Shown piece by piece: positions 5,929 through 21,115 of a stretch of 64,000 bases of DNA; within the stretch, counting starts at the first letter, position 1; each line of letters opens with the position of its first letter. The notes under the pieces are model-generated. The model had not been told where the DNA came from. It did not search any database and saw only the letters and a program-made list of their open reading frames with translations. The stretch is from Mucilaginibacter conchicola (GTDB lineage Bacteria > Bacteroidota > Bacteroidia > Sphingobacteriales > Sphingobacteriaceae), in the NCBI RefSeq assembly GCF_003432115.1, contig NZ_QWDC01000002.1, positions 1,454,878-1,518,877 on the forward strand, read 5' to 3'. Made by a program: the position numbers and the translations under genes.

Positions 5929-6072
5929 GTGTAAGAGTTTAGTTTCCTCAAATTTATAACTTCAGTTAAAAATTACAAATATTTTTTTCTCAAAAATTAA
6001 TATGTATTGCATGATTTGAAAATGGTAAACTGACAGGAAAGTGTCCGGTAGGTGATCAGTGTCCGGATATGC

Positions 6073-6111: not shown

Positions 6112-6179
6112 AGCCGGTTCGCCTTCGCTCTGCGCGGTGTCGCGCACGCCGCTGCGGTTCACCCGTTTTTACCGCTGTT

Positions 6180-6261: not shown

Positions 6262-6299
6262 TGTTTTATTTTTTAAGACTGCTGAATTTGTATTGGAGG

Positions 6300-6719: not shown

Positions 6720-6819
6720 GGACGGCTCGGCTGAAACGGTTATAAACGTTTAAATAACAGTGTTTTCGAGGATTTGATTTTTTGTGTTGACAATTTTGAT
6801 TGGATTTAAAAGAATAGTT

Positions 6820-7404
6820 ATGGAAAATGCAAGAAAAATAAATTACCCGAACCTGGTCAGTGAAAGCTTTGGCCACGGTCGTAAACACTATTTCATTGAC
6901 GTAAAGAAAGCCGCGAACGATACGCATTTTGTGCTGGTTACTTCCAGTGAGCAGTATGCGGATAAGCAATACCACCGGCAAACGATACAGCTTTGGGAGG
7001 AAGATCTGGCCTTCTTTGTGGAGGCACTGACGATGGTGCTGAGACAAATGACCTGCGGCGACGGGCCGAGGCCTTTCAGTAAACCTCAAATGGAAGTGGT
7101 GAAGGACGCTGCGGGCATGAAGGCGCTGGCAACCGAAGACAGGCCACGGGAGAAGCTGCATGCTTTTGGTGCCGGTTCTTTGAGTAATGCGGAGTTACTG
7201 GCGATCCTGTTCTGTACGGGCAGTTCGGAATTGTCGGTGCTGGATCTTTGCGGAAAGATCATGCGGTCGGTGAAAGATGATCCGGCGCGTTTAACGCTGC
7301 GGACAACGGAAGATCTTTGTCGCTTTCGCGGGGTTGGCGTGGCGAAGGCTGCGACGCTGCTGGCGGCGCTGGAACTGGGCCGCCGTGCTTTTGCGACGGT
7401 TTAG
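6820..7404 (+). CDS. PUR-domain (DUF3276) / RadC N-terminal domain fusion
   Basis: The ATG at 6820 is chosen over an upstream GTG (6784). Residues about 5-78 ('KINYPNLVSESFGHGRKHYF' onward) resemble the DUF3276/PUR-type single-strand nucleic-acid-binding domain of Bacteroidota. Residues about 105-192 match the helix-hairpin-helix N-terminal half of RadC/UPF0758 ('REKLHAFGAGSLSNAELLAIL', 'CRFRGVGVAKAATLLAALELG'). The MPN/JAMM catalytic half of RadC is absent and the protein simply ends at 194 residues. RadC-like proteins are common in mobile elements. The combination of two nucleic-acid-binding modules suggests a DNA-processing or anti-restriction helper, which is inference. Confidence 0.75.
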   Translation: MENARKINYPNLVSESFGHGRKHYFIDVKKAANDTHFVLVTSSEQYADKQYHRQTIQLWEEDLAFFVEALTMVLRQMTCGDGPRPFSKPQMEVVKDAAGMKALATEDRPREKLHAFGAGSLSNAELLAILFCTGSSELSVLDLCGKIMRSVKDDPARLTLRTTEDLCRFRGVGVAKAATLLAALELGRRAFATV

Positions 7405-7487
7405 CGGGCAGCGGCATTTTTCCGCAGCAATGAAGTGTTTATAGCAAAGGTAGCGCGATCCCGGCCCGCCCGTCAAGGGTTTATGAA

Positions 7488-7504
7488 CCGCGGCGATGCC
7501 GCGG
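7488..7504. repeat. 7-bp perfect hairpin in intergenic DNA
   Basis: CCGCGGC-GAT-GCCGCGG lies in the 157-base GC-rich gap between the PUR/RadC gene and the next gene. It is flanked by a weaker outer pairing of GTCAAGGG with CCCCTGAC. It has no T-tract, so it is not an obvious terminator. Confidence 0.5.
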
Positions 7505-7561
7505 CCCCTGACAGGCAAACCGTGCCGCGCTTTCGGGGCATAAAAACTTAATTGCCACGCT

Positions 7562-8152
7562 ATGGAAAAATTTGCATTAACCCTTCGTTCTAAAACCGTC
7601 TTAAAGGAGCACCGCGGTTTCGCCCGGTATGAAAAGGAACTGGCTGCCGAGATTATTTTGGCTATCGAGCAAAAGAATACCGAAGTGTTGAACTGGTTCA
7701 ATGGTTTCGGTGACAGCCTGCGGGCGATCCTGATGAATGTTCATGCCTACCATAAAGGTTTGGAGTTTGGTTTCACCGAAATCGCTTTTGGTCAGTATGG
7801 TTGGTTTGTCCGCCCGCAATTTCTGGATTATGAAGTGATAAAACCGGGTAATAGTGAACGTTACGGCGAGTACAGCGAGATCCGCATCGGTCGCGGGCCA
7901 AATGGCATCTGGTCGTATGCGCTGAATTATAGCTTTGGTTGTGCGGGCGGTGGTTCCGCATTGTCGGTTTACGATCCGCATTTTGCTTCCCGCGATGCGG
8001 CACTGGATCATGCGTTGGCCAAATTAAAGGTAATGTTTACGGCTCAGATCGGTTCCTCTGATACCACGAACTATAAACAGGATATTATCCAGAAAACTTT
8101 AAAGGCCATAGATCAGCAGATGGTCGCCATGATACAATTAAGCCTGTTTTGA
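7562..8152 (+). CDS. conserved element-associated hypothetical protein
   Basis: A 196-residue soluble protein. The N-terminal half is helical ('EKELAAEIILAIEQKNTEVLNWFNGFGDSLRAIL'). The middle is rich in aromatic and glycine residues ('GFTEIAFGQYGWFVRPQFLDYEV', 'SYALNYSFGCAGGGSALSVYD'), and the C-terminus is a long helix. I do not recognise a named domain. Its position between the PUR/RadC gene and the primase suggests an element-maintenance role, which is inference only. Confidence 0.7.
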   Translation: MEKFALTLRSKTVLKEHRGFARYEKELAAEIILAIEQKNTEVLNWFNGFGDSLRAILMNVHAYHKGLEFGFTEIAFGQYGWFVRPQFLDYEVIKPGNSERYGEYSEIRIGRGPNGIWSYALNYSFGCAGGGSALSVYDPHFASRDAALDHALAKLKVMFTAQIGSSDTTNYKQDIIQKTLKAIDQQMVAMIQLSLF

Positions 8153-8205
8153 AGGCTTAATTGTAATCTTTTTTTGGGGGGTGAGCCGGGGTATCGGTCT
8201 TTTTT

Positions 8206-8493
8206 TTACTTGCCGGACAGGCCTTTCATTTTTTCACTGAGTTCTTTTAAGCCTGCCTTGTCCAGGCAGTCCCCGGCAAAGTCTTTTAACTTTTCGACGT
8301 CCTCTGCCGGAACAAGCTTAATAAGTTCCGGCTTTTCGCCCTCGGTGGTCAGACTAAGCTCGATAATACTGTTGAGGAACAATACGGTTTTACGGCTCAT
8401 CTTTACATCGATCTTAACTGCTTCATTCATTCCGGGACTACATAACAATGTTTCAAACACTGTTCCCAGCACACTTGTCGTTGCCATACGCAT
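8206..8493 (-). CDS. small conserved hypothetical protein
   Basis: A 95-residue protein, convergent with the preceding gene. It starts with a short segment ('TSVLGTVFETLLCSPGM') and continues as a soluble alpha/beta protein ending in a charged helix ('EKLKDFAGDCLDKAGLKEL'). No domain is recognised. Its placement between element genes on the opposite strand suggests independent expression. The opposite strand is also open over this stretch, but it reads as low-quality Ser/Phe-rich sequence. Confidence 0.6.
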   Translation of the reverse strand: MRMATTSVLGTVFETLLCSPGMNEAVKIDVKMSRKTVLFLNSIIELSLTTEGEKPELIKLVPAEDVEKLKDFAGDCLDKAGLKELSEKMKGLSGK

Positions 8494-8629
8494 TTATTTT
8501 TTAGGATTAATAATTGGCTCAAAGGTCGGTACCTGGTTTGAAATGATCCTACCCAATATTTGGGGTGGATAGGTAAATGCGGATGGGCTGCTCTACTTTT
8601 GTTTTCGATAAATGTGAAGGAGATAAGTG

Positions 8630-9553
8630 ATGGATTTTAGCGATGAGTATTTTTCGCTGGCTAAGGTTAAGGATATCGACCTGAACCTTTTCCTTGGAGT
8701 GGAAGGCTTTGAGCCGGTGGCGCGGAAGAAAAACGATACGGACTGGTGGTATCTCTCGCCATTGCGCAATGAAAAAACGGCCAGCTTTCATGTGGACCTG
8801 TTGCGTAATGAGTGGTATGATTTCGGGCTGGGGGCGGGTGGGAATCCCTTAGATTTTTTCCTGCGGTATTACACGGGCGATATACCGGAAGTACTGGAAA
8901 TTCTGAACCACAATTATTCGACGCATACCCTGCAATTGTATCAGCCGGAAAGGTTTGCGGATTTGGTCAGCGAAGCGCATAAATTGCTGGTGACAGCGAT
9001 ACGTCCGCTGTACAGTTACCCGCTCAAAAATTACCTGCATGAGCGGTCGGTACCGGTGTCGGTGGCGGATCAGTTTTGCAGGGAATTGACGTACGAAATC
9101 GGTGGCCGTAGTTACTACGGTATCGGCTTTCAAAATGATGCAGGCGGCTGGGAGATCCGCAATAAAAATTTTAAGCAAAGCAGTGCCCCGAAGGATATCA
9201 CCTGCCTGGCTCATGGCGCAGGTTCGGTACATGTGTTCGAGGGCTTTATGGACTTCCTTTCCTGGCGTTCTTTGAACCCTTATGTGGATCCGCATTCGGT
9301 AGATACCGTAGTGTTGAACGGGGCAGGTTTGTTTGACCGTGCGCTGCCTTTTCTGAATGCGCATGAGCGTGTGCATTTGTGGCTGGACAGGGATGTTACC
9401 GGCTTGGCTTTCCGGGATTATGCGCTTTCCCGGAGCAGCAGGTTTGTAGATGAAAGCGGTTTGTATGAACGCTTTAAGGATCTGAATGAGTGGTTGCAGC
9501 GCAAAGGCGAAACACCGCTTTTGCGCCGGCAGTCAGGTTTGCATTTGACTTAA
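8630..9553 (+). CDS. Toprim-domain primase-like protein
   Basis: The ATG at 8630 has an AAGGAG site 6 bases upstream, which decides the start. The N-terminal ~90 residues follow the outline of the DnaG/CHC2 zinc-binding domain ('YLSPLRNEKTASFHV', 'WYDFGLGAGGNPLDFF') but lack the zinc-binding Cys/His residues. Residues about 195-260 form a Toprim domain: 'HVFEGFMDFLSW' supplies the conserved Glu and 'LWLDRDVTG' the DxD. Such proteins accompany mob genes in Bacteroidota elements and are thought to prime the complementary strand after transfer. At 308 residues it is far shorter than DnaG and has no helicase-binding domain. Confidence 0.85.
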   Translation: MDFSDEYFSLAKVKDIDLNLFLGVEGFEPVARKKNDTDWWYLSPLRNEKTASFHVDLLRNEWYDFGLGAGGNPLDFFLRYYTGDIPEVLEILNHNYSTHTLQLYQPERFADLVSEAHKLLVTAIRPLYSYPLKNYLHERSVPVSVADQFCRELTYEIGGRSYYGIGFQNDAGGWEIRNKNFKQSSAPKDITCLAHGAGSVHVFEGFMDFLSWRSLNPYVDPHSVDTVVLNGAGLFDRALPFLNAHERVHLWLDRDVTGLAFRDYALSRSSRFVDESGLYERFKDLNEWLQRKGETPLLRRQSGLHLT

Positions 9554-9619
9554 TATTGATTTAATGGATTTTTTGTGATGGTGCTATTTTGCTTTTTCCC
9601 TCACCGGGAGAATGCCTGA

Positions 9620-9701
9620 GATCGCCAGTTTTGCGATCGGCAAGATGTACCATTGTCTGACAACAATGGAAGATTGCGCCCCTTCTCCGAAGTCGGGGGC
9701 G
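9620..9701. other. candidate origin of transfer (oriT)
   Basis: Directly upstream of mobC lie three successive inverted repeats: GATCGC/GCGATC (9620-9625, 9633-9638), CCATTGT/ACAATGG (9650-9656, 9663-9669) and CGCCCC/GGGGCG (9677-9682, 9696-9701). Clustered short inverted repeats just upstream of mobC-relaxase genes are the usual arrangement of an oriT. The nick site cannot be assigned by eye. Confidence 0.5.
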
Positions 9702-9760
9702 GCGGGAAACGAGTGTTTTTGAAGCCATTTAGGCAGGGGTATTTTGTGGGAGGATGAGTG

Positions 9761-10150
9761 ATGGAAGAGGAGAATAGAGGCCGTAAACGACGAATTACGC
9801 TGCGTTTGACCGCAGAGGAATTTGCAGAATTAGAAGGTAACTGGAAAAATTCGACGGTGCGCAAGCTCTCAGATTTTGTGCGGCGGCTGATCTTTGGCCG
9901 GAAGTTTACAGTCTACACGCGTAATAAATCAATGGATGAATTGCTGGAAGAACTGGGGCTTTTACGTCGGGAATTAAATGCCATCGGGGTGAATTTTAAC
10001 CAGGCGGTGCATCGTTTAAATATGCTGGATCATGCACCGCAGATGCAGGCCTGGGTCATGCGTTTTGAGCAGGATAAGGAGCGCTATTTTACTGCGGTTG
10101 CAGCTATTGAATTGAAGCTGGTTTCGCTGAATGAAATATGGTTGCAGTGA
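9761..10150 (+). CDS. mobC: MobC-like mobilization (relaxosome accessory) protein
   Basis: A 129-residue basic protein. It opens with 'RGRKRRITLRLTAEEFAELEGNW', a ribbon-helix-helix-like DNA-binding segment found in MobC/plasmid mobilization proteins. 'LGLLRRELNAIGVNFNQAVHRLN' follows, the conserved helix of that family. It is expected to bind oriT DNA and help the relaxase open the strands. ATG 9761 has GGGAGGA about 7 bases upstream. The 3' end overlaps the relaxase gene by 13 bases, typical of mobC-mobA pairs. Confidence 0.88.
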   Translation: MEEENRGRKRRITLRLTAEEFAELEGNWKNSTVRKLSDFVRRLIFGRKFTVYTRNKSMDELLEELGLLRRELNAIGVNFNQAVHRLNMLDHAPQMQAWVMRFEQDKERYFTAVAAIELKLVSLNEIWLQ

Positions 10151-11430
10151 TCCATCAATCGAAGCATTTGCGGATCGCCTTGAATTATAATGAGCACAAA
10201 GTAAAGAATGGCCAGGCGGTTTGTCTGGAAGCGGGTTATTATCCCGTCGGGCCGGAGCATTTGAGCTTTCACCAGAAGTTGAGACGGCTGGAATTGCTGG
10301 CTGAACTGAACCAGCGGACAAAGCATAACTGCCTGCACGTGTCTTTAAATTTTGATCCCTCTGAAAACCTTTCGGATGAGCGTTTGCGGGAGATCGCAGC
10401 AGTGTATCTGGAAAAGATCGGCTTTGCCGGGCAGCCTTATTTGTTATACAAACATGAGGATGCAGGGCACCCGCATCTGCATCTGGTGACGACGAATATT
10501 AAGCCGGATGGCAGCGCCATCCGCATGAATTATTTAGGGCGTGATCAATCCGAACCGGCGCGAAAAGATATCGAGCAATTGTTTGGTTTAGTGGTTGCGG
10601 ACAAGCAGCAAAAGCGGCAGGTGTTTCAGGTGCAGCCGGTGAATGCAGCGAAGGTTTTATATGGTAAGACGGAAACGAAGCAAGCCATTAATAATGTATT
10701 AGTAAAAGTATTGGCGCAATACAAATATGCTTCGCTGGCGGAATTGAATGCGGTGCTGCGGCAGTATAATATTGTTGCCGACCGGGGAGATGAAAAATCA
10801 AGGATTTTTAAGTACAGCGGTTTGGTTTACCGGGTGCTGGATGAACAGGGTAACAAGGTTGGGGTGCCTGTCAAGGCGAGTTTGTTTTTTGCTAAACCGA
10901 CCTTGAAATTTTTAACGGAAAAGTTTGAAGCGAACAAGTTGGCAAAGGATGAACCGAAAGCGAAACTGCGTTTAAAAAATGTGATCGATCTGTATTTGTT
11001 AAATGGTCCTAAAACTTTGGATGGTTTGATGGCGCACCTGAAAACAAAGGGTATAGATATGGTTCTTCGGTATAATGAGCAGGGTATTTTATATGGGGTG
11101 ACTTATGTAGATCATTATAGTAAATGTGTTTTTAACGGAAGTGTTTTGGGGAAAGCCTATAGTGCCAACGCCATAAGGGAACGCTGTTTAAAAACCGGGG
11201 CTGATGAGGGGAAAAAACAAAACGGGCGAATGGCAAAACTGGCGCGGGACGGGCAGGGAACGCGGGGTAAAACGCGTGAAGATCGACCGGGAATTTTTGA
11301 TGCTGTTGGGGGGTATCAGGGGCAGGGTTTGGTGGAAACCCTGCTGGATACCAGTGGTACAGCAGAGGTGATGGATTGGGATCTGAAGCGGACGAAGAAA
11401 AAGAAAAAGAAAGTGCGGATGTCGATGTGA
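10138..11430 (+). CDS. relaxase/mobilization nuclease (MobA/VirD2 type)
   Basis: A 430-residue relaxase. The histidine triad motif is clear in 'HEDAGHPHLHLVTTNI' (about residues 107-122), which binds the metal for oriT nicking. The upstream 'HVSLNFDPSENLSDERL' is motif II-like, and a candidate catalytic Tyr lies in the N-terminal 30 residues (for example 'LNYNEHKV'). The C-terminal 200 residues lack a recognised domain and end in a lysine-rich tail. It overlaps mobC by 13 bases and precedes the coupling protein, so the relaxosome genes form one operon. This is the strongest evidence that the region is transferable. Confidence 0.9.
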   Translation: MVAVIHQSKHLRIALNYNEHKVKNGQAVCLEAGYYPVGPEHLSFHQKLRRLELLAELNQRTKHNCLHVSLNFDPSENLSDERLREIAAVYLEKIGFAGQPYLLYKHEDAGHPHLHLVTTNIKPDGSAIRMNYLGRDQSEPARKDIEQLFGLVVADKQQKRQVFQVQPVNAAKVLYGKTETKQAINNVLVKVLAQYKYASLAELNAVLRQYNIVADRGDEKSRIFKYSGLVYRVLDEQGNKVGVPVKASLFFAKPTLKFLTEKFEANKLAKDEPKAKLRLKNVIDLYLLNGPKTLDGLMAHLKTKGIDMVLRYNEQGILYGVTYVDHYSKCVFNGSVLGKAYSANAIRERCLKTGADEGKKQNGRMAKLARDGQGTRGKTREDRPGIFDAVGGYQGQGLVETLLDTSGTAEVMDWDLKRTKKKKKKVRMSM

Positions 11431-11490
11431 TGCCGGTGAGCATTGGCTTGCCGGTGAAATAAAATAAAAGTGTGGTTGGATAAAGAAAAG

Positions 11491-11530
11491 CCCCCCGCTG
11501 GAGCTTGTGCTGAGCACGGTCGAAGCAGGG
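11491..11530. repeat. REP-like palindromic element
   Basis: The 120-base gap between the relaxase and coupling-protein genes contains an imperfect hairpin centred on GTGCTGAGCAC, with 'GAGCTTGTGCTGAGCACGG' and 'TCGAAGC' around it. It resembles the dispersed CTTGTxCTGAGC..TCGAAG repeats of many bacterial genomes. No T-tract follows. Confidence 0.45.
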
Positions 11531-11550
11531 AGGGTTGGGAGGGGTGAGAT

Positions 11551-13530
11551 ATGCAAACTGGAGAAAGCGATCAGGCGATGCGCAAGATCCTGGACATGAC
11601 CAGGCTGATCAGTATAGGGGTCTTATTGCTGCATTTTTATGTGGTATGTTACGGTGCTTTTGTGGAATGGCATTGGGTGTCGGAATTGTCGGACCGTCTG
11701 CTGGGCAATGTGGTGAAAACAGGTTTGTTCAGTAGCTTCCTGAAGCCGAAACTGATCTCGCTGGGCTTCCTGGCTATTGCCCTGATCGGGGTTAAGGGAA
11801 AGAAGGACGAGAAGCAGACCTGGAAGACGGCAGCGCTTTATTTGGCGGTAGGCCTTTCTTTTTTCTTCGCCAGTCAATTGGTGTTGCTGGTGAGGGGAAA
11901 AATAACTTTGGTGGCCTCGGCTTATATGGGTAGCTGTGGCCTGGGCTTTTTGCTGATGCTGAGCGGCGGTACGATGCTGTCGCGAATCATCCGGGATCAA
12001 TTGCAGGGGGATATTTTTAATCGCGACCAGGAAACGTTCCCGCAGGAGGAGCGCCTGCTGGAGAATGAGTTTTCGGTCAATCTGCCGATGAAATATGTGC
12101 TGAAAGGTAAGGTGCGGGATGGCTGGATCAATTTGATCAATTTGTTCCGCGCCTTGTTGGTCTTGGGTTCACCGGGATCGGGTAAAAGTTACTTTATTAT
12201 CCGGCATGTGATCACACAGCATATCCGTAAGGGGTTTGCGATGTTCGTGTATGACTTTAAGATGCCGGACCTGGCGGTGATCGCTTACAATACTTGGCTG
12301 AAAAACAAAGGCGGGTATAAAATAGAACCTCAATTCTATTCCATTAATTTCGATGACCTCTCCCGCAGTCATCGCTGCAATCCGCTGGATCCATCTGCCA
12401 TGCTGGACCTGACGGATGCGGTGGAATCGGCAAGAACGATATTGCTGGGCTTGAACCGGGAATGGATCAAAAAGCAGGGTGACTTTTTTGTGGAATCGCC
12501 GATCAACTTTCTGACAGCGATCATCTGGTACTTGCGCAAGTATAATAATGGGGAGTTCTGCACGCTGCCGCATGTGATCGAGTTGATGCAGGCGGATTAC
12601 GATAGTTTATTTACACTGTTGGGTACACAAAAGGAAATTGACGTGCTGATCAATCCTTTTATCAGCGCTTATAAACGGGATGCGGTGGAGCAGTTGGAGG
12701 GGCAGATCGCTTCGGCGAAGATTACGATGGCGCGGGTGGCTTCGCCGCAATTATATTATGTGCTGTCTGGTAACGAATTTACGCTGGATATCAATAATCC
12801 TGAAAATCCGAAGATCGTCTGCATGGGGAATAATCCGCAGAAGATACAGATCTATGGGGCGGTGCTTTCCTTATTTACCAACCGCCTGCTGAAGATCATT
12901 AACCAAAAGAACAAGCTGAAATGCAGCCTGGTATTCGATGAGTTCCCTACACTGACCACGGATATCATTCCGACGATTGCGACGGGCAGGTCTAACCTGA
13001 TCGCCACCACGCTCGGTATCCAGGATGCCAGCCAGCTGCGCAAAGATTACGGAAGGGAACAGGCGGATGTGATCATGAATATCGTGGGCAACATGGCGGT
13101 TGGGCAGGTATCGGGAGATACGGCGAAATATGTTTCGGAAAAGATCGGGCGGATCATGCAGGATAGGGAAAGTCTGTCCATCAATCGCAGTGATACTTCG
13201 ATCAGTCGTTCAAAGCAGTTGGAGGCAGCTGTGCCAGTCTCCCGCATTTCGGCTTTAAGTTCCGGCGAGTTCGTGGGGATGGTGGCCGATAACCCGGATT
13301 GCAAGATTGAGTTGAAGACTTTTCATGGCGAGATCGTAAATGACCATGCGGCGCTGAAAAAAGAAATCGAGGGTTATGTGGCTTTGCCGGAAGTGCGGAA
13401 GATTAGCAGCGCTATTATAGAACGGAATTATTTACAGATCAAACAGGATATCAGGGACATTATTGAGCTCGAGATGGAACGTTTGTTGAGTGACCCGGAA
13501 CTGGCGCACCTGATCATTAGAAAGAATTAG
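11551..13530 (+). CDS. type IV secretion coupling protein (TraG/VirD4/TraD type)
   Basis: A 659-residue ATPase. Four hydrophobic segments (about 18-36, 66-81, 93-115 and 120-142) anchor it in the inner membrane. Walker A is 'GSPGSGKS' at 206-213 and Walker B is 'SLVFDEF' at about 459-465; the intervening sequence has the TraG-type layout ('NPLDPSAMLDLTDAVESARTIL'). It should link the relaxosome to a type IV secretion channel and power DNA transfer. No channel genes are visible here, so they lie outside the window or are supplied in trans. The ATG follows a GGGAGGGG-type purine run. Confidence 0.9.
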   Translation: MQTGESDQAMRKILDMTRLISIGVLLLHFYVVCYGAFVEWHWVSELSDRLLGNVVKTGLFSSFLKPKLISLGFLAIALIGVKGKKDEKQTWKTAALYLAVGLSFFFASQLVLLVRGKITLVASAYMGSCGLGFLLMLSGGTMLSRIIRDQLQGDIFNRDQETFPQEERLLENEFSVNLPMKYVLKGKVRDGWINLINLFRALLVLGSPGSGKSYFIIRHVITQHIRKGFAMFVYDFKMPDLAVIAYNTWLKNKGGYKIEPQFYSINFDDLSRSHRCNPLDPSAMLDLTDAVESARTILLGLNREWIKKQGDFFVESPINFLTAIIWYLRKYNNGEFCTLPHVIELMQADYDSLFTLLGTQKEIDVLINPFISAYKRDAVEQLEGQIASAKITMARVASPQLYYVLSGNEFTLDINNPENPKIVCMGNNPQKIQIYGAVLSLFTNRLLKIINQKNKLKCSLVFDEFPTLTTDIIPTIATGRSNLIATTLGIQDASQLRKDYGREQADVIMNIVGNMAVGQVSGDTAKYVSEKIGRIMQDRESLSINRSDTSISRSKQLEAAVPVSRISALSSGEFVGMVADNPDCKIELKTFHGEIVNDHAALKKEIEGYVALPEVRKISSAIIERNYLQIKQDIRDIIELEMERLLSDPELAHLIIRKN

Positions 13531-13531: not shown

Positions 13532-14020
13532 ATGGCGAATCAATGTTATAATGAAGTGTATTTTACTGGTGAACAGAACCGGGTCAAACAAGCAAATCGT
13601 TTTCTGTCGGGTCACCAATTGGATGAATATGACGGTACGGCGATCAAGGGCACTGATGGATATTTTCAGGACCTGTATTTCTGTAACGGAAAATTTCATT
13701 TCGGAACCCGCTGGGTCCCGGATTTTACCACGCTGATCGCAGTGGCAGACCTCTTTAAGGTCGGTTTCATCGTGGAATATTCGGATCCGGCGATGTCTCT
13801 TTACGGACGTGGCATGTATAAGGACGGCACTTTTGTTGACGTTCGCTTGGACATCGATGATTATAAAAAGATCGGCTACAACCAAAAAGAAGGCACTTAT
13901 CAATATCAGGACAGGACGTACCGGGATCTGGAAAAACCTGCTTTGGCAGTCTTAAAAGATAAGGTCAGTCAGCATCCGGCATGTAAGGTCCGCCGACTGA
14001 AGATAAAACGAGGTCAATAA
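13532..14020 (+). CDS. hypothetical protein of the MANxCxNxVxF (Api92/DUF1281-like) type
   Basis: A 162-residue soluble protein starting 1 base after the coupling-protein stop. The opening 'MANQCYNEVYFTGEQ' and the later 'FHFGTRWVPD' and 'YSDPAMSLYGRGMYKDG' recall the small family seen in phages and mobile elements (Api92/DUF1281-like), whose function is unknown. The assignment is by pattern only. It is probably the last gene of the mobilization operon. Confidence 0.65.
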   Translation: MANQCYNEVYFTGEQNRVKQANRFLSGHQLDEYDGTAIKGTDGYFQDLYFCNGKFHFGTRWVPDFTTLIAVADLFKVGFIVEYSDPAMSLYGRGMYKDGTFVDVRLDIDDYKKIGYNQKEGTYQYQDRTYRDLEKPALAVLKDKVSQHPACKVRRLKIKRGQ

Positions 14021-14077: not shown

Positions 14078-14626
14078 TTAGAATCGTAAAAGGCCGGAAT
14101 TTAAAATTCTGTAATACATGGCCTGAGAAGATACATCAAAAACTTTCGCCAGATTTTTGATATCATCTTCACTTCCCAGGTCAAAATCGATCTGATCTAT
14201 TTCTTTTTTTAACAAATGATCGGGCATTAATATATAGGCAGCGAATGTGTTGGCTTCACGCTCCAAAACCTGTGTTTCCTCCGTTAAACCTGACTGTCTG
14301 CTTCTGAAAATGGCATTAAAGCCTTTATCCATGAACATCTTTGATTCAGTACTATGGAGTGCGTAATGGCCGCATTCGTGGGCGATCGTGAATCGGCGTC
14401 GCACACGCGATTCATTTTGATTGTAGCCGATGTAGCCCTGTTCATTCTCAATTACCAATACACCTGATATGTCATCGTCAAAAGCAAATGGCGTTACCCT
14501 TAATCCAAGTGCTTTGGCGACATCTTCGATCTTTACCGGTAAGGATCTGATGTTTAATTCTGATAAAATGGCATCAGCGCGCTTTTTAATAAAATGGATC
14601 GACCTGGCGTGAGTTCTGGTACTCAT
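14078..14626 (-). CDS. ImmA/IrrE family metallopeptidase
   Basis: The 182-residue protein has the zinc-peptidase motif in 'FTIAHECGHYALHS' (HECGH). Upstream are the family's 'ADAILSELNIRSLPVKIEDVAKALGL' and downstream 'EREANTFAAYILMPDHLLK', giving the third ligand region, and a C-terminal 'VSSQAMYYRIL' helix. ImmA/IrrE peptidases cleave or inactivate a partner XRE repressor in response to a signal such as DNA damage. The start overlaps the upstream XRE gene by 4 bases (ATGA), so the two are translationally coupled. Confidence 0.92.
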   Translation of the reverse strand: MSTRTHARSIHFIKKRADAILSELNIRSLPVKIEDVAKALGLRVTPFAFDDDISGVLVIENEQGYIGYNQNESRVRRRFTIAHECGHYALHSTESKMFMDKGFNAIFRSRQSGLTEETQVLEREANTFAAYILMPDHLLKKEIDQIDFDLGSEDDIKNLAKVFDVSSQAMYYRILNSGLLRF

Positions 14627-14988
14627 TTAGTAATTTGATTCATGAATTGATTGATGGAATTTTTAACTCTCTCATTTAGATCTACATTAGAACTGGCGAT
14701 TACCGAAGAGAAATCCACCTCCCGCAGCGTTTGTTCATGCTGCTCCACCCGCTCGATATTGAGTTCAACCGGAACCAGATCAATATAATCAACCTTTAAA
14801 ATATTTGCGATAGTGATCAATAAATATAAAGAAGGTCGCTGCCGGCCTTTCTCGATATTAACAACAGAAGAGCGGGTCATGTTTAACAATTCTGAAAATA
14901 CCTCCTGATTGATGCCTGCTGTAAGGCGGTAGTTCCTAATCCGTTCACCAATTTTTTCGTAAAATACTTCTTCAGAAAGTGCGATCAT
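14623..14988 (-). CDS. XRE-family helix-turn-helix transcriptional regulator
   Basis: A 121-residue protein with a clear Cro/CI-type HTH at residues about 10-65 ('IGERIRNYRLTAGINQEVFS', 'TRSSVVNIEKGRQRPSLYLL'). A short C-terminal tail follows that could be the target of the neighbouring ImmA peptidase. It is paired with ImmA/IrrE in the usual order. Pairs like this commonly control excision, transfer or cargo genes of integrative elements; what it controls here is not shown. Confidence 0.92.
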   Translation of the reverse strand: MIALSEEVFYEKIGERIRNYRLTAGINQEVFSELLNMTRSSVVNIEKGRQRPSLYLLITIANILKVDYIDLVPVELNIERVEQHEQTLREVDFSSVIASSNVDLNERVKNSINQFMNQITK

Positions 14989-15014
14989 AACCCGTTGATT
15001 TTTAAACCGATGTA

Positions 15015-15046
15015 CAAAGGTGGGTATAATTTAGAAATATTCCAAA
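15015..15046 (-). promoter_or_regulatory. promoter of the XRE-ImmA operon
   Basis: On the minus strand a -33 TTTG (15043-15046) is followed after 20 bases by CACCTTTG (15015-15022), one mismatch from the Bacteroidota -7 consensus TAnnTTTG. It lies 27 bases upstream of the XRE start codon. Confidence 0.6.
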
Positions 15047-15143
15047 TGGTTTTTTAAAATTACACAGAAAAAAAGTTTTATAAAATTTGTCAGTTTTCAA
15101 AATTTGTATTAATTTAGCGGCATGATCTTAAAATAAAAGACAT

Positions 15144-15171
15144 AAAAAAAGCCGAGAGCAAGGCTCCCAGC
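15144..15171 (-). terminator. intrinsic terminator reading on the minus strand
   Basis: GCTGGGAGC and GCTCTCGGC form a 9-bp stem (two wobbles) with a 3-base loop, followed by seven T on the minus strand. It would end a transcript coming from the 15.2-15.4 kb gap. On the plus strand a T6 run also follows, 5 bases away. Confidence 0.65.
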
Positions 15172-15254
15172 TTCGTATTTTTTAGCGTAATCAACAGGCG
15201 TTGCCGCCCTCGTTAAAAACTTGCTAATGTTTCTAGTCAACTCAAAAGTAAGGA

Positions 15255-15404
15255 TTATTCTTCAAAATAACAAGCGGATAGGTATATTTTATCTATTGGG
15301 AGCATCTCAAGGCCATTTTTGGAATAAAATTTTTTAAAAGGCAAATACCATTTCATTATTTCCGGAAAAGCGTCCGTTAAGGACAACGCCTGCACAACAG
15401 GCAT
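15255..15404 (-). CDS. possible 49-aa small protein divergent from the ubiquitin-like operon
   Basis: An ATG-initiated frame of 49 codons on the minus strand has a protein-like composition ('TDAFPEIMKWYLPFKKFYSKNG', 'LSACYFEE'). It is followed 83 bases later by a good minus-strand terminator. It lies in the 450-base gap between the XRE gene and the ubiquitin-like operon, where no larger gene exists. It could be a real small gene, a gene remnant or chance. Confidence 0.3.
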   Translation of the reverse strand: MPVVQALSLTDAFPEIMKWYLPFKKFYSKNGLEMLPIDKIYLSACYFEE

Positions 15405-15443
15405 GGTATTCAACATTGTTTTTTAAAATTAGATCCCAAAAAA

Positions 15444-16622
15444 ATGGAATTAAAAAAAGACGGGCATGAGAAGCCCAAAGTATATATCGCAACAGTTAAC
15501 GCAACAGAAATAGCTGTTTACGATCCAAAGATTACCGGCGCACAATTATTGAAAGAAGCCGGTATCAAACACGTTCAATGTCACACGCTTTATCAAAAAT
15601 TCAAAGGCTGTGATTTCGAAAAAGTGGCCATGGGCGAAGTGATAGATCTTTCAAAGGAAGATATCGAACATTTCGTTACTAAAGGTCCTGATGTTTTTAA
15701 TTATGAGGTTGACGGCGAGCCCGAAACGACCGATCACAAGGACCTGACCCCGCTTCGGATCATGGAGCTCAAGGGGGCGGATCCGGCTAATCACTACCTG
15801 ATCCAATTATTGCACGGCCGTGAGCAAGTTAGCTACGCCTATTGTCCGGATGAGCCGATTATTATGGATTGCCGCGGGATGAAGTTCATTACGGCTAAAT
15901 GGCTCGATGTGGTGAATATCGAAGAGTATGGTAAACAATGTAAACCGGTCCCTCCGGCGCGCAAATACCGTATCCGTGTAGATAAACAATATCATGACTG
16001 GGCAGATCGCTTAATTTCCGTACGTGAACTGATCAATTTAGAGTACCCGCACAGTTCCGCACCTTTTGAGGTATACAAGTTCCTTAATACAAGTCCTAAA
16101 CCTGTAAAGCTTCATCATAGTGAAAAGGTTGACCTGACAGAAAAATGCCTGGTCAGATTTACCATCCAGCCAAAGGAGCAGAAAGATGGTTTACAGACAG
16201 TTGCTGCGGAAGCGGCGCACAAGGTGCAGCCACGCAGGGAATTTTACCTGCCTGAGGATGATACAGATTTTTTAGACAGCCTTGGCCTCCTTTGGGAGGC
16301 CATAGGCCGTCAGTCCGCAATGTGGTTGCTTATTCATGATTACCCGCTGCCGGATGGCTATAATGTAGCGAAGGTAGATGTCGCTTTACTGATCGCACCC
16401 TCTTATCCTGCTACAGAAATTGACATGGCTTATTTTTATCCTGCCCTTTCTAAAAGATCCGGGCGTCCGATCAACGCGTTAAGCTCACAGATTGTCGACG
16501 GTCGGAATTTCCAACGCTGGTCGAGGCACCGTCAACCCGGTGAATGGAGGCCTGGGGTAGATAGCATCTCCACGCACTTATGTTTAGTTGACAATTGGTT
16601 AGTTACAGATTTAGGGAGGTAA
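15444..16622 (+). CDS. multi-ubiquitin-like protein fused to a prokaryotic E2-like domain
   Basis: A 392-residue protein. Residues 12-80 ('KVYIATVNATEIAVYDPKIT' on), about 101-155 ('TPLRIMELKGADPANHYLI' to 'CRGMKFITAKW') and about 173-245 ('RKYRIRVDK' to 'VRFTIQPKEQ') look like three tandem ubiquitin-like domains of the prokaryotic Multi_ubiq type. Residues about 265-392 ('REFYLPEDDTDFLDSLGLLW', 'HDYPLPDGYNVAKVDVALLI', 'DMAYFYPAL', 'RWSRHRQPGEWRPGVDSIST') match the prokaryotic E2 family E. The E2 part has one cysteine, Cys380. The chain ends in the E2 domain with no diglycine tail. A GGGAGG site at its end serves the E1 gene 1 base away. Predicted role: modifier and E2-like carrier in a ubiquitination-like pathway. 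Confidence 0.88.
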   Translation: MELKKDGHEKPKVYIATVNATEIAVYDPKITGAQLLKEAGIKHVQCHTLYQKFKGCDFEKVAMGEVIDLSKEDIEHFVTKGPDVFNYEVDGEPETTDHKDLTPLRIMELKGADPANHYLIQLLHGREQVSYAYCPDEPIIMDCRGMKFITAKWLDVVNIEEYGKQCKPVPPARKYRIRVDKQYHDWADRLISVRELINLEYPHSSAPFEVYKFLNTSPKPVKLHHSEKVDLTEKCLVRFTIQPKEQKDGLQTVAAEAAHKVQPRREFYLPEDDTDFLDSLGLLWEAIGRQSAMWLLIHDYPLPDGYNVAKVDVALLIAPSYPATEIDMAYFYPALSKRSGRPINALSSQIVDGRNFQRWSRHRQPGEWRPGVDSISTHLCLVDNWLVTDLGR

Positions 16623-16623
16623 T

Positions 16624-18018
16624 ATGAACGCGTTAAGAATTTCGGGATTTCATTATAATTTACTTCAACAGCACCTTTATCCCGGCGATAATAAGGAAGC
16701 GGTTGCCATCGCACTTTGTGGCCGGAGCGATTATCAGGGAAACCATACTTTATTAGTGCAGGACCTGTTATTGGTACCTTACGGGGTTTGCGACCGCAAA
16801 AGTGACTTTATACGCTGGCCGACAGAGGTAATCAATACTTTCTTGGAACGTGCTGCCAAACATCAACTGGCGATTGTGAAGATCCATTGCCATCCGGGCC
16901 CTGATATACACGAATATTTTTCAGAACTGGATGATGAATCGGACCGGCTTTTGTTCCGAAGTATACATTCTTGGCTCGACGACAATCTGCCGCACGCCAG
17001 TTGCATCATGCTGCCTGACGGACGTTTGTTCGGCCGCTTTTTTAACGGCCAGATGGGAACGGAGACCGTTCACAAGATCGCTGTTGCAGGAAGCGATGTG
17101 TTGATCTGGCATTACCAGGATGACCGGCCGGGAATAGTTGACGAATATCAGTTGCGTAACTTGCAGGCCTTCGGCCAAAGAACGGTTCATGTGCTCAACA
17201 AGATGAAAGTTGCAGTGGTCGGCTGCTCAGGCACAGGAAGCCCGGTTATCGAGCAATTAAAGCGACTCGGCGTGGGAGAGTTAATACTTGTTGACCCTGA
17301 CTTTGTCGACGGGGTAAACTTGAACAGGATCATTGGGACCACCAGTGCCGATGCCGCTGCTAAGACCATGAAGGTTGACGTGATGCGCAGGGGCATTGAG
17401 GAGGTAGGAATGGGAACAAAGGTCACCACCTTCGCCGCCCATATATCCCGGGTCGATATCATCAAGGCGATAGCCGACAGCGATTATCTGATCAGTTGTG
17501 TTGACGGAACGGAAGGCAGGCATAATTTGAACCTGATCTCCTCTTTTTATGTTCTACCGTTAATGGATATGGGCGTAAAATTAAATGCCGACGGAAATGG
17601 TGGAATCAAAAATATCTTTGGTGCGGTGCATTACATCCAGCCCGGCGGTTCAAGCTTGTTAAGCCGGCAGCAATATAGTTTAGAAAGCCTGCTCGCCGAA
17701 TCAGTTAAACGCATGGATCAGGAAGAGTACGCGCGTAACCAGTATTTAGCCAACGTTAACGAATCTCAGCCGGCAGTGATCAGTATCAACATGCAGGTTG
17801 CTGCTACTGCTGTTAACGACTTCCTGGCAAGGATACATCCTTACAGGAATATATCTAATTCGGACGTTGATGCCATCAAGATCGATTTTGCGGATGGTCT
17901 TTCTTATACAGAAACATTTACCGAGGTATGCCCATTTTTCAGAAAATGGGTTGGCAAAGGAGATGTTGAGCCATTGTTGAACAGTCCTGAGCTAAGTGAT
18001 GTTAAGGCTGTTTTATAA
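16624..18018 (+). CDS. JAMM/JAB isopeptidase fused to E1-like (ThiF family) adenylating domain
   Basis: A 464-residue fusion. Residues about 1-145 form a JAB/MPN domain with the metal site His88-x-His90-Pro, Ser100 and Asp103 ('KIHCHPG' and 'SELDDESD'). Residues about 165-440 form an E1/ThiF domain: a glycine-rich loop 'VVGCSGTGSP' (198-207), 'LVDPDFVDGVNLNR' (222-235) with the ATP/Mg-binding Asp and Arg, and 'SCVDGTEGRHNLN' (291-303). The first half should remove or process ubiquitin-like modifiers and the second should adenylate them. Candidate cysteines are 201, 292 and 436; which, if any, carries a thioester is unclear. The gene follows the E2 fusion by 1 base and overlaps the DUF6527 gene by 20 bases. 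Confidence 0.9.
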   Translation: MNALRISGFHYNLLQQHLYPGDNKEAVAIALCGRSDYQGNHTLLVQDLLLVPYGVCDRKSDFIRWPTEVINTFLERAAKHQLAIVKIHCHPGPDIHEYFSELDDESDRLLFRSIHSWLDDNLPHASCIMLPDGRLFGRFFNGQMGTETVHKIAVAGSDVLIWHYQDDRPGIVDEYQLRNLQAFGQRTVHVLNKMKVAVVGCSGTGSPVIEQLKRLGVGELILVDPDFVDGVNLNRIIGTTSADAAAKTMKVDVMRRGIEEVGMGTKVTTFAAHISRVDIIKAIADSDYLISCVDGTEGRHNLNLISSFYVLPLMDMGVKLNADGNGGIKNIFGAVHYIQPGGSSLLSRQQYSLESLLAESVKRMDQEEYARNQYLANVNESQPAVISINMQVAATAVNDFLARIHPYRNISNSDVDAIKIDFADGLSYTETFTEVCPFFRKWVGKGDVEPLLNSPELSDVKAVL

Positions 18019-18322
18019 TTGGCTCTTAAGGCTTTTCAGGAAGGAAAAGCTTTATGGCTACCAGTTCGTAGACGATGTACCTGGCCGGCTCAGGCTGGGT
18101 ATTGTTTACCTGGTCGGAAACCAAGGGTATATTTGGCAATGTGTAATGCTTTGCCCTTGCGGTTGTAAACAAATACTTTACACGAACCTGATCGAAGATC
18201 ATCATCCTTTTTGGAAATATAAGCTTAACGGTAAAACGATTTCTTTAAGGCCGTCCATTGATCGACTGGTTGGCTGCCGCAGTCACTTTTTCCTGACGGA
18301 TGGGAAGATTATTTGGTGTTAG
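17999..18322 (+). CDS. DUF6527 family protein of ubiquitin-like operons
   Basis: A 107-residue protein. Its signature is 'CPCGC' (about 52-56) with the C-terminal 'RPSIDRLVGCRSHFFLTDGK' and a final Trp-Cys, the pattern of DUF6527. That family recurs beside E1/E2/JAB/multi-ubiquitin genes, and I recall the name BubE being used for it, which should be checked. ATG 17999 overlaps the E1 gene by 20 bases, so translation is coupled. It may act as a processing protease or accessory of the pathway; the conserved Ser and His of 'PSI...CRSHFF' are notable. A strong terminator follows 49 bases later and closes the operon. Confidence 0.8.
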   Translation: MLRLFYNWLLRLFRKEKLYGYQFVDDVPGRLRLGIVYLVGNQGYIWQCVMLCPCGCKQILYTNLIEDHHPFWKYKLNGKTISLRPSIDRLVGCRSHFFLTDGKIIWC

Positions 18323-18370
18323 CTGTTTTTCAAATTACCTCATTTTCATTTTTTTAACATCAGCTTACTT

Positions 18371-18410
18371 ACAAACAATCTGAAAAACAATTTTCAGATT
18401 GTTTGTTTTT
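18371..18410 (+). terminator. strong terminator of the ubiquitin-like operon
   Basis: ACAAACAATCTGAAAA pairs perfectly with TTTTCAGATTGTTTGT around a 3-4 base loop, followed by five T. The long A/T-rich stem marks the end of the E2-E1-DUF6527 transcript. Confidence 0.85.
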
Positions 18411-18435
18411 ATGGTTACAGATAATTAGTTTAGGA

Positions 18436-18469
18436 TTGTGATTTAATTTAAACCTTATTTGTACCTTTG
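18436..18469 (+). promoter_or_regulatory. promoter for the small gene and C39-like peptidase
   Basis: TACCTTTG at 18462-18469 fits the Bacteroidota -7 consensus TAnnTTTG exactly. A TTG at 18436-18438 lies 23 bases upstream, slightly farther than the usual 19-21. The first ATG is 40 bases downstream. Confidence 0.6.
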
Positions 18470-18508
18470 CAGTCCAAAAAATGGCTGAAAAGTTATTTAT
18501 TATCAATT

Positions 18509-18685
18509 ATGGAAAAACTTCAACTATCACAGATTTTGGTGCCAGGCGCTGAGATCAAAGCGGTTAAGCTGAAACAAACAGCTGCCGTAAGAAAGGCGAT
18601 TGAAGATACCATGCTTTTACAAGATGAGATACTTAAATTAAAAAACGTTGACCAGGAGACCCTCAAGTTGGTTGTACAGTTATAA
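18509..18685 (+). CDS. 58-aa small protein preceding the C39-like peptidase
   Basis: The ATG at 18509 gives 58 residues, mostly helical and charged: 'LSQILVPGAEIKAVKLKQ' then 'TAAVRKAIEDTMLLQDEILK', ending in 'LKLVVQL'. It has no cysteines, no signal peptide and no recognised domain. It is the first gene of a two-gene unit, with the peptidase GTG 7 bases after its stop. A substrate, chaperone or antitoxin-like partner of the peptidase is possible, but none is shown. Confidence 0.65.
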   Translation: MEKLQLSQILVPGAEIKAVKLKQTAAVRKAIEDTMLLQDEILKLKNVDQETLKLVVQL

Positions 18686-18692
18686 TTAAGTA

Positions 18693-20228
18693 GTGAAAAT
18701 CCTCGCCTATTCTGAGGCTAACCTCGCGGTAGCCTTATCTAACAAAAAGACCACCCCCGAAATAGTTAAGCTGAAAAAGCACTTTAGCTATTTCAAAAAG
18801 TATTTGGAAAGCCCAGAGCTTAACGTAAAGACGATTCTTCTTGAAGAAGGTTATATCAGTCGCGATTACCTTCATGACTATGCTTCATATTACGCGCTCT
18901 GTTATGAACAATATGAAAAAGTGTGCCGTAGGGTGCACTTTTTTGATAATGAGGTCACTGAAGATGAATTTAAAAAGATCATTATTCAGCCCGTTGAGGA
19001 TCAAGCCGAATTTTGGAAGCATTATATGGGTTTCATCGTAGTCAAACCGTTGCCTTCCAAAATGATCGGCTATACGGTTCTAAAAACCTATTCAAATAGC
19101 CAAAACTACAGTGACCGAAATTTTTGGGGTTTGCGGCAGTACACGATCAACCTATACGGGAATAAAATCACCTTGGAATCTCTGGCTTTTCAGGAACAGG
19201 ATTCTGTACTTGCCGCTTGCGCAACTATGGCAGTGTGGTCGATGCTGAACAAGGCCGCAGTCGATTTTCACACCGTCCTTAAATCCCCCAGCCAGATAAC
19301 TAACGACGCAGATAATGTTTCTCCTGACGGCAGTCGGTTATTCCCGAATAATGGCTTGAGTATACAGCAGATCTCTCAGGCGATACTGGCATCAGGTCTT
19401 GTATCAGAAATAAAGGATGGCGATTTCAGGCCGCCCGATAGGCCGTACAAGGTCATTACGGTACGTTATCTGAAAAAGATCATTAATGCTTATTCCGGCA
19501 TTGGCATACCCATCATCTTGGTCGTTAGGGTGCCTAGTGGCGGCAGTCACGGCCTGCATGCCATAACTGTCTCGGGTTTTAAGGTAAATCAGCCCCTCCC
19601 CATTTTGCCGCAAAAGAATATCAGTTATATGTCTGATAACATTGATCGGATATATGCCCATGACGACCAATGGGGACCGTTCGCGCGGATCAACCTGTCA
19701 AATGATTACGACCTTGAAACGCCCTGGACAGAGTTTGATAAAGAGCATCGCCCAACTGTAGTTACAAGCATCGTCGTTTCTCTCTATCCTAAAATCAGAA
19801 TTTCTTATCAGGACCTGGAAGTGATCGTAGTGGGACTGGATCTGATACTTACCCTTTTCTTTAAAAATCACATCCTTGCAGACCTGGTTTGGGATATCAA
19901 GATCGAGTTCAGCGAAAAGTATAAAACAACCCTAAAAAATTCCTCTTTGGATGACACTGAAAAGGTAGAAATACTGGCAGAGAGCATGCCGAAATATATT
20001 TGGGTAGCAACCTGTCACATAGGCGAACACAAGTTGTTCTGTTTTACATTTGATGCTACAAATGTAAATCATGCCATGATCGGACTGCAGGTTATATCCT
20101 TTCTGCCGGACAAACTTCAGCAAACACTTAAACAGTTCTTGATAAAGAACAGAGAAACCCTTCAGTTTATGTTCAAGCACATGGCAAGTGAAAAGTATTA
20201 TGAATTTTTGATCAATAAACTCAAGTAA
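18693..20228 (+). CDS. C39/papain-like cysteine peptidase domain protein of unknown function
   Basis: A 511-residue protein starting at GTG 18693. The N-terminal ~160 residues are unassigned ('YMGFIVVKPLPSKMIGYTVL'). A papain/C39-like core follows: 'QEQDSVLAACATMAVWSML' gives an oxyanion Gln169 and nucleophile Cys176, 'GSHGLHAITVSGF' gives His289 (or His286), and 'YAHDDQWGPF' at 321-330 supplies the acidic residue. The C-terminal ~160 residues are also unassigned. All catalytic positions are present, so peptidase or transglutaminase-like activity is plausible. Next to a ubiquitin-like operon, a deconjugating or modifier-processing role is attractive but unproven. It could equally be an independent defense gene. 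Confidence 0.75.
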   Translation: MKILAYSEANLAVALSNKKTTPEIVKLKKHFSYFKKYLESPELNVKTILLEEGYISRDYLHDYASYYALCYEQYEKVCRRVHFFDNEVTEDEFKKIIIQPVEDQAEFWKHYMGFIVVKPLPSKMIGYTVLKTYSNSQNYSDRNFWGLRQYTINLYGNKITLESLAFQEQDSVLAACATMAVWSMLNKAAVDFHTVLKSPSQITNDADNVSPDGSRLFPNNGLSIQQISQAILASGLVSEIKDGDFRPPDRPYKVITVRYLKKIINAYSGIGIPIILVVRVPSGGSHGLHAITVSGFKVNQPLPILPQKNISYMSDNIDRIYAHDDQWGPFARINLSNDYDLETPWTEFDKEHRPTVVTSIVVSLYPKIRISYQDLEVIVVGLDLILTLFFKNHILADLVWDIKIEFSEKYKTTLKNSSLDDTEKVEILAESMPKYIWVATCHIGEHKLFCFTFDATNVNHAMIGLQVISFLPDKLQQTLKQFLIKNRETLQFMFKHMASEKYYEFLINKLK

Positions 20229-20764: not shown

Positions 20765-20773
20765 CGTTATCAG

Positions 20774-20847
20774 TAGCGGGGAGCAGGATCGAACTGCCGA
20801 CCTTAGGGTTATGAATCCTACGCTCTAACCATCTGAGCTACCCCGCC
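20774..20847 (-). tRNA. tRNA-Met (CAT anticodon)
   Basis: A complete 74-base cloverleaf: acceptor GGCGGGG pairs with CCCCGCT (one G-U), the D stem GCTC/GAGC, anticodon CAT in loop TTCATAA, T stem GGCAG/CTGCT around TTCGATC, discriminator A, no encoded CCA. The anticodon stem TAGGA/CCCTA has an A-C mismatch at its last pair. The GAGC and loop sequences fit an elongator-type Met (or tRNA-Ile2 precursor) rather than initiator. The accessory region ends next to its 3' side. Confidence 0.9.
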
Positions 20848-20879: not shown

Positions 20880-20956
20880 TGGTTCTATGGATCGAACTGC
20901 CGTCCGACAGCTGGCGGATATGAATCCTACGCTCTAACCATCTGAGCTACCCCGCC
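20880..20956 (-). pseudogene. degenerate tandem copy of the tRNA-Met gene
   Basis: A 42-bp segment (20919-20960) covering the 5' half is identical to 20810-20851 of the intact tRNA, and GGATCGAACTGCCG of the T arm also recurs. The 3' half differs: the anticodon 3' stem and variable loop are replaced by a palindrome-like CCGCCAGCTGTCGG. The 3' acceptor strand (ending ATAGAACCA) cannot pair with GGCGGGG. A working cloverleaf is not possible, so this is a tRNA pseudogene 109 bases from the intact copy. Confidence 0.75.
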
Positions 20957-21115
20957 GTATAAATAAATTATTGCTAAATTAACTTTAGCTTACTTTTTTA
21001 GTCGAACCCATGTAAGGGTGGCTAAAAAAGGTTTGCAAATATAGCAGATTTTCGCTTTCTTTAGAAAAAAAGTTAACTTTTAGCCCCCTGATTGATTTGT
21101 AACGATTGTACCCCT

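Follow-up and report, generated by a model that had tools for sequence, protein, structure and literature searches.

A Bub-type ubiquitin-like operon within a conserved seven-gene cassette of Mucilaginibacter conchicola

Do the three closely packed genes at positions 15444–18322 of a 64,000-nucleotide stretch of Mucilaginibacter conchicola DNA (contig NZ_QWDC01000002.1; the whole stretch is called the window) encode a pathway that attaches and removes a ubiquitin-like (Ubl) modifier, and are they the whole of the unit? Judged from its sequence, the operon is a member of the Bub family (type 6e of Iyer), intact-looking and ordinary rather than new in architecture, and it lies within a conserved cassette of seven genes (14078–20228) running from CapP/CapH-like regulators to a peptidase and its small partner. 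What was observed directly is the family membership, the conservation of active-site residues and of a glycine, and the conserved cassette. We consider it quite probable that a Bub pathway operates in this cassette in the way proposed below.

Core operon and conserved cassette

The core operon consists of the following genes:

15444–16622, forward strand: BubA-BubB fusion gene (open reading frame, ORF, of 392 aa), with Ubl domains followed by a Prok-E2_E domain
16624–18018, forward strand: BubCD gene (464-aa ORF), an N-terminal JAMM isopeptidase fused to a ThiF-type E1
17996/17999–18322, forward strand: DUF6527 gene, 108 aa from GTG or 107 aa from ATG

The ORFs and both junctions were found as given in a preliminary description of this DNA: a gap of 1 base separates the first two genes, and the second and third overlap by 20 bases if DUF6527 starts at ATG 17999, or by 23 bases with the GTG. 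The window proteins were scanned against Pfam, the cut-offs being applied per family, and Multi_ubiq (1.6e-18), Prok-E2_E (2.7e-36), ThiF (6.9e-24) and DUF6527 (PF20137, 1.8e-21) all exceeded them, as the preliminary description had anticipated. Its JAB prediction fared differently, since Prok-JAB scored 20.1 bits against a cut-off of 25. However, we regard the JAMM domain as settled, because residues 10–459 of BubCD match the solved Citrobacter BubCD (9ea4, 2.9e-73) and the catalytic residues E25, H88, H90, S100 and D103 are invariant in 19/19 aligned homologues. The E1 assignment holds as well: Pfam places a single ThiF match at residues 178–318, and the GSGTG stretch is invariant or nearly so in the 19 aligned BubCD proteins. 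Together with the match of the E2-like domain to Citrobacter BubB (2.2e-28), these results bear out the claim of a Bub-type operon.

The fusion architecture had been called condensed. The fusion is real, but its unusual status was overstated, since 14 of 19 compared Bub loci are fused (a set mostly recovered with a fused query and hence biased to that form), the Citrobacter protein is fused, and such fusions were described in 2006. The fused loci are the window, L006, L007, L008, L009, L010, L011, L014, L018, L052, L053, L055, L063 and L066, and the split ones L012, L013, L056, L064 and L065. Outside the 19-row BubCD and E2 alignments are L015, L016, L017 and L019, of a more distant JAB-E1 type; L023, L026, L054, L057 and L058; and the DUF6791 or Mesorhizobium-type operons L041, L042, L061, L062 and L082. 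A search of plasmid DNA with the operon as query gave no match. Membership in CBASS was considered and rejected: the PADLOC matches of the E1 half were to E1-E2 models (best 4.9e-12), which we read as the common E1 domain. The core operon is one more compact example of the family.

The preliminary description took the three genes as the unit and missed two genes downstream. Window positions 14088–20221 align with positions 4469–10568 of locus L052 (G200, a different genus within the same family) as one collinear block with 66.5% identity and no further match (blastn, E ≤ 1e-5); the ORFs flanking the block in L052 look unrelated to those of the window. Therefore capP, capH, bubAB, bubCD, the DUF6527 gene, a small ORF and a peptidase gene form one conserved block, to which the core operon contributes three genes and the following four:

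14078–14626, reverse strand: CapP-like ImmA/IrrE metallopeptidase (Peptidase_M78, 6.9e-21 in Pfam; PADLOC capP, 1.6e-35), with HECGH as its HExxH motif
14623–14988, reverse strand: CapH-like XRE repressor (HTH_3, 8.5e-11; PADLOC capH, 8.5e-8, behind HTH_VI, 9e-12)
18467–18685, forward strand: small partner ORF, 58 aa from ATG, ending in LKLVVQL 7 bases before the peptidase gene
18693–20228, forward strand: papain-fold (C39-like) cysteine peptidase, 511 aa, with Q169, C176, H289 and D324

All seven genes also occur in L007 and L008, with the peptidase inverted.

The papain-fold peptidase and its small partner

The protein encoded at 18693–20228 gave no Pfam, NCBIfam or PADLOC match at E ≤ 0.1. 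When three homologues were scanned with Peptidase_C39_2 (PF13529), that of L018 scored 24.9 bits against a cut-off of 24, and those of the window and L007 did not match. Residues Q169, C176, H289, D324 and D325 are invariant in 19/19 aligned rows, and an AlphaFold2 model built from a 15-row alignment (pLDDT 83.9, pTM 0.85) resembles staphopain (1cv8; Z 15.5, rmsd 3.5, 171 aligned residues), the C39 domain of PCAT1 (Z 13.6, rmsd 2.0, 134 aligned), the pseudomurein endoisopeptidase PeiR (Z 13.4), UfSP2 (Z 11.3) and ZUFSP (Z 10.4). The conserved Q-C-H-D set and the papain-like fold together predict a papain-like (C39-like) peptidase. What it shares with staphopain, PCAT1, UfSP2 and ZUFSP is the fold of residues ~138–366 and the Q-C-H-D set; it differs from them in sequence (11–16% identity), in the ~137 N-terminal and ~145 C-terminal residues outside the matched fold, and in having a small partner ORF. 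No match to the peptidase was found in phage records (tblastn), and its best PHROGs match had an E value of only 0.098.

Sequence homologues of the small ORF lie directly upstream of the peptidase gene, besides the window, only in L052, L041, L042 and L050. Nevertheless, an ORF of 40–68 residues ends 7–84 bases upstream of 15 of 21 peptidase ORFs, and at least five loci (L047, L048, L051, L078 and L079) have a small ORF on the downstream side instead.

Is the pair a part of the Ubl pathway or only its neighbour? Searching with the peptidase alone gave 22 further loci: 11 genomes besides that of the window in a sample of 395 from the class, 7 more in 395 from the phylum, and 4 plasmids; the G277 locus is at a contig start, and G561 has only a 97-aa fragment. 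In 6 of the 22, one of them assigned by eye, the peptidase is within ~2 kb of a Ubl operon:

G371 and G279: Multi_ubiq, DUF6791-ThiF and DUF6527 genes beside the peptidase
Pseudomonas plasmid: the same Multi_ubiq/DUF6791-ThiF/DUF6527 type beside the peptidase
Mesorhizobium plasmid and G808: Ubl, E2-like and JAB-ThiF genes (by similarity) beside the peptidase
G301: Ubl-like protein, DUF7665, a JAB match with E 0.088 and an E1-like protein without a Pfam match; assigned by eye

Fourteen Ubl-operon queries, of which the L051 E1-like query was uninformative, detected no Ubl operon in the flanks examined of the other 16 loci; the one exception was an isolated ThiF-like protein, 7 kb away in G807. 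Among the class genomes Multi_ubiq occurs in 20 others, and three (G209, G279 and G371) carry both it and the peptidase, adjacent in two. The chance of such adjacency was estimated at ~0.002 (11 loci × 20/394 × ~17.5 kb/4 Mb), a figure that the tendency of defence genes to cluster would increase. Among 26 peptidases placed on a tree, 12 (counting loci found through their operons) carry the label "beside Ubl operon", which requires 6 changes, gains or losses, at least 5 of which are forced by well-supported branches.

Several counts weigh against the peptidase as a regular member of the pathway. Seen from the Ubl operons it is a minority partner, adjoining Multi_ubiq in 2 of the 20 Multi_ubiq genomes, and searches of the class sample did not detect it in the 6 other genomes with Prok-E2_E. 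Of 14 loci recovered with the fusion protein as query, 10 are true Bub loci, and the 4 that have the peptidase are all among these; it is also present in 2 of the 4 same-family loci found by BubCD; L053 and L006, two of the six closest cassettes, have no peptidase within the flank examined.

In our judgement the chances are about even that the peptidase and small gene form an independent module of defence islands, a mere neighbour of Bub. This view is favoured by the 16 loci lacking a Ubl operon of the tested kinds and by the rarity of the pair in Multi_ubiq and Prok-E2_E genomes. Other neighbours point the same way: an MkoA-like kinase with AbiGi, a type III-A retron reverse transcriptase, a HamB-like helicase with a caspase, and further a Ppl-like ATPase and a Type I restriction enzyme. 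So does a possible terminator between the operon and the pair:

18371–18406, forward strand: terminator-like hairpin with a 16-bp stem and a T run, after the three-gene operon

This hairpin, called by consensus match only in a region (14900–18800) that holds 7 terminator-like sites against a mean of 3.4 in shuffled sequences, suggests that the small ORF and peptidase are transcribed apart from the operon. In contrast, the six loci beside Ubl operons of several types, the repeated label changes on the tree and the position of the peptidase inside the block common to L052 are not what a mere neighbour would lead one to expect. Since it is a minority partner of Ubl operons and its defence neighbours are varied, the peptidase may be a general defence module occasionally picked up by Ubl systems.

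A bolder proposal is that 18467–20228 encodes an undescribed arm of bacterial Ubl pathways, either a second Ubl protease, of the cysteine type, or a killer protease under Ubl control. It would have become associated more than once in evolution with Bub, with Multi_ubiq/DUF6791-ThiF operons (where no JAMM domain was detected) and probably with further Ubl operons, the small protein being an inhibitor, propeptide or conjugation target. We hold this to be possible, though doubtful. A link between the peptidase and Ubl operons was absent from the literature searched, a set without the main papers of the field. If the peptidase does act on Ubl conjugates, bacterial Ubl pathways would gain a cysteine protease comparable in fold to the eukaryotic UFSP and ZUFSP. 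The useful new lead is the peptidase/small-protein pair itself, an unannotated family with conserved active-site residues that recurs near varied Ubl operons and defence genes.

In the Multi_ubiq/DUF6791-ThiF/DUF6527 operons of L041, L042 and L061, neither a JAMM nor an E2 gene was detected, and the Ubls end in NVT(P/S)TDKS and not in glycine. In L051, the genes beside the peptidase at 3367–6200 (Ubl-like, DUF7665, a weak JAB and an E1-like protein without a Pfam match) could be a further type of Ubl operon. In L047, a type III-A retron-like reverse transcriptase (10010–11161, reverse strand; PADLOC 1.8e-162) lies one gene from the peptidase/small-ORF pair.

Regulation, processing and transfer

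The XRE/ImmA pair noted beside the operon is present as a divergent pair (14078–14988) whose two genes overlap by 4 bases. Being CapH/CapP-like, it is probably the operon's own controller, and according to PMC13373217, CapW or CapH+CapP accompany 219 of 544 Bub operons; the same source reports protection against phage by Bub as undemonstrated. The mobile surroundings reported earlier were also recovered, with genes for MobC, MobA relaxase and the type IV secretion system coupling protein at 9758–13530. XRE/ImmA pairs are common in conjugative elements, and with Mob and coupling-protein genes adjoining, the pair might instead be the mobile element's own immunity repressor of the ImmR/ImmA type, a reading to which the want of a convincing operator palindrome common to the capH-bubAB intergenic regions also lends itself. 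We think this unlikely, since the divergent pair keeps the same position in 6/6 of the closest cassettes (window, L052, L053, L006, L007 and L008) and the block matching L052 begins at CapP, with unrelated flanks.

A terminator-like hairpin in the capH leader (15148–15174, reverse strand), partly kept in L052, could be an attenuator. A 48-nt imperfect direct repeat (73%) occurs before capH (15038–15085) and before bubAB (15407–15454), as a candidate common control site or by chance in AT-rich DNA. Outside the cassette, an Api92-like (DUF1281_C) protein (13532–14020) adjoins the conjugation coupling gene, and on the right is the following gene:

20773–20847, reverse strand: tRNA-Met (ARAGORN)

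A second, partly matching tRNA copy at ~20889–20960, which has no ARAGORN call, lies 109 bases on, shares an exact repeat of at least 40 bases and is possibly an insertion scar; this tandem partial copy was the only duplication found when one bounding the mobile element was sought.

The junction of the Ubl and E2 parts of the fusion protein has these features:

16230–16616, forward strand: E2-like (BubB) domain (Prok-E2_E, 2.7e-36; Citrobacter BubB 9eav, 2.2e-28; 19-row alignment)
16188–16190, forward strand: codon of Gly249, where the mature Ubl is predicted to end (after QPKEQKDG and before LQT), placed by hhalign column match and split-operon ORF ends

Three Ubl domains had been claimed. 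The first and third correspond to the two Multi_ubiq matches in Pfam (15492–15680 and 15966–16166), and single-Ubl proteins also align over the full length of the third (hhalign, 98.8%). The N-terminal part matches the multi-ubiquitin proteins 8u38, 9d5b and 9cd2; because two such structures of 240–260 aa, 8u38 (2.5e-5) and 9d5b (3.1e-5, whole-sequence E), align through residue 128, a middle Ubl domain is likewise suggested, against which stands a negative single-sequence hhalign comparison of residues 86–165 with Ubl3 profiles.

In 4 of the 5 split operons the free Ubl stops exactly at QTEG, the exception being L064, which continues for eight residues after STEG. A glycine lies just before the E2 domain in 14/14 fused forms (12 by sequence pattern; L018 and L066 by eye), although the pattern itself demands glycine and its uniformity is therefore by construction; the argument is instead that Gly249 aligns with the terminal glycine of the split-operon Ubls (hhalign column match) and that their ORFs end there. 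The Citrobacter plasmid fusion L066 corresponds to two PDB chains, BubA 155–229, which ends at the glycine, and BubB, which starts at the next residue; structural biologists have therefore already divided the fused protein at this bond. Kept in 14/14 fused forms and terminal in 4/5 split ones, the glycine is a clear candidate processing site, and the simplest reading would be a polyprotein that is cut after Gly249 in the manner of ubiquitin precursors. Since all 19 loci have the JAMM domain of BubCD, with its residues conserved, this domain is the likely protease. Less in accord with processing are two peculiarities of the window, a linker of 14 residues from Gly249 to the RRxF start of the E2 domain, against 3–10 in the other counted fused forms, and the motif KDG where 9 of the 14 fused forms have TEG. 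Fusion variants in L053 (5670–6992) and L006 (5779–7107) have an additional N-terminal Ubl-like stretch before the E2 domain, giving four Ubls by eye.

The E2 domain had been assigned the role of carrying the modifier. Its 19 aligned sequences share a conserved block, Q-x-WSRH, but no conserved cysteine, and the sole cysteine of the window E2, C380, is not conserved; thioester carriage is therefore unsupported. BubCD has three invariant cysteines, of which C32 and C56 belong to the JAMM half and C292 to the CVDG motif. A classical relay from an E1 cysteine to an E2 cysteine is therefore not supported either, and both observations count against transfer by the usual chemistry. For Bub, an ester intermediate has reportedly been put forward, though our reading does not depend on it. 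The lack of an E2 cysteine would also suit an uncut fusion serving as a non-conjugated scaffold or oligomer, with the E1/JAMM protein acting on something else, and bacterial Ubl oligomerization is named in the title of Gong et al. 2025. We nevertheless judge an uncut fusion to be quite unlikely, given that split operons produce free Ubls ending at the very glycine that fused forms keep (4/5) and that the PDB chains of the Citrobacter protein are split there. A sulfur-carrier or cofactor pathway of the ThiF/JAB type, as in siderophore operons, would be favoured by the ThiF/MoeB models that match the E1 half, though far under their cut-offs. It is highly improbable, since BubCD is matched over its full length, Multi_ubiq and Prok-E2_E domains are present and the block common to L052 has no metabolic gene.

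In the DUF6527 protein, C53, C57, C94 and H97 are invariant in 23/23 aligned rows, so that C53-x3-C57-x36-C94-x2-H97 is predicted to be a zinc site. No paper naming DUF6527 turned up in our literature search. The protein has no sequence match in the PDB, and its AlphaFold2 model, although confident (18-row alignment, pLDDT 88.8), has no Foldseek match at E ≤ 0.001 and a best VIA-align Z of 3.0. These comparisons spoke neither for nor against an E3/RING reading. The protein is perhaps an accessory, its service as a target adaptor being a guess.

The cleavage, conjugation, regulation and biological role that we infer for the cassette, as a Bub pathway, would be as follows: i) as in its family, CapH may keep the operon repressed and be cleaved by CapP once single-stranded DNA has activated the latter, ii) the first gene would yield a multi-Ubl/E2 polyprotein, iii) a cut after Gly249, for which the BubCD JAMM domain is the most likely protease, would give a free Ubl C-terminus and the E2 domain, iv) the E1 domain would adenylate Gly249, v) the Ubl would be passed to target proteins, with the cysteine-less E2 as a docking or positioning subunit, vi) the JAMM domain would take the Ubl off targets again, vii) the DUF6527 zinc protein would be an accessory, perhaps a target adaptor, and viii) the papain-fold peptidase and small partner would be an accessory of the cassette, probably with their own transcription.

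Comparison with known systems

The Bil (bacterial ISG15-like, BilABCD) system has a Ubl, E1, E2 and isopeptidase in one operon, as does the window. According to PMC11354881, however, BilD carries a Cys domain along with two adenylation domains, whereas the window has one ThiF match fused to JAMM in a 464-aa protein, together with a cysteine-less E2. Membership in Bil was therefore rejected, no second adenylation domain or Cys domain being seen in BubCD, whose invariant cysteines are those given above.

Iyer et al. 2006 (PMC1779556; row 6e) describe type 6e operons as having one to three Ubls, a JAB-E1 fusion and a small zinc-finger-like protein, with an E2-like domain that lacks the conserved cysteine and is either fused to the Ubls or encoded separately, by a gene placed between those for the Ubl and JAB-E1. 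The window shares with that description the Ubls, the C-terminal cysteine-less E2, the JAB-E1 fusion and the zinc-type protein with C-x3-C. It differs in that a third Ubl and the E2, given there as mutually exclusive C-terminal domains, are both present in one protein, and in that the second half of the zinc signature, printed as H-x2-C, is C-x2-H. With the CapH+CapP regulators (Lau et al. 2022, as cited in PMC13373217) the window shares a divergent pair of XRE and ImmA-type metallopeptidase genes adjoining an immune-type operon.

The nearest relative with solved structures is in Citrobacter, where the plasmid locus L066 has the gene order of the window: a multiubiquitin protein with E2, ThiF and DUF6527. 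The Bub pathway of this genus (BubA/BubB/BubCD; PDB 9ea4, 9ea5, 9ea8, 9eae and 9eav) was reportedly described by Ye et al. in 2026. Full-length BubCD, the BubB domain and Ubls fused to E2 with a glycine at the boundary are common to both. Upstream, L066 has two other genes, one of them annotated as a winged-helix regulator, where the window has the CapH/CapP-like pair; the sequences have diverged, and the cassette of the window adds the peptidase and the small gene.

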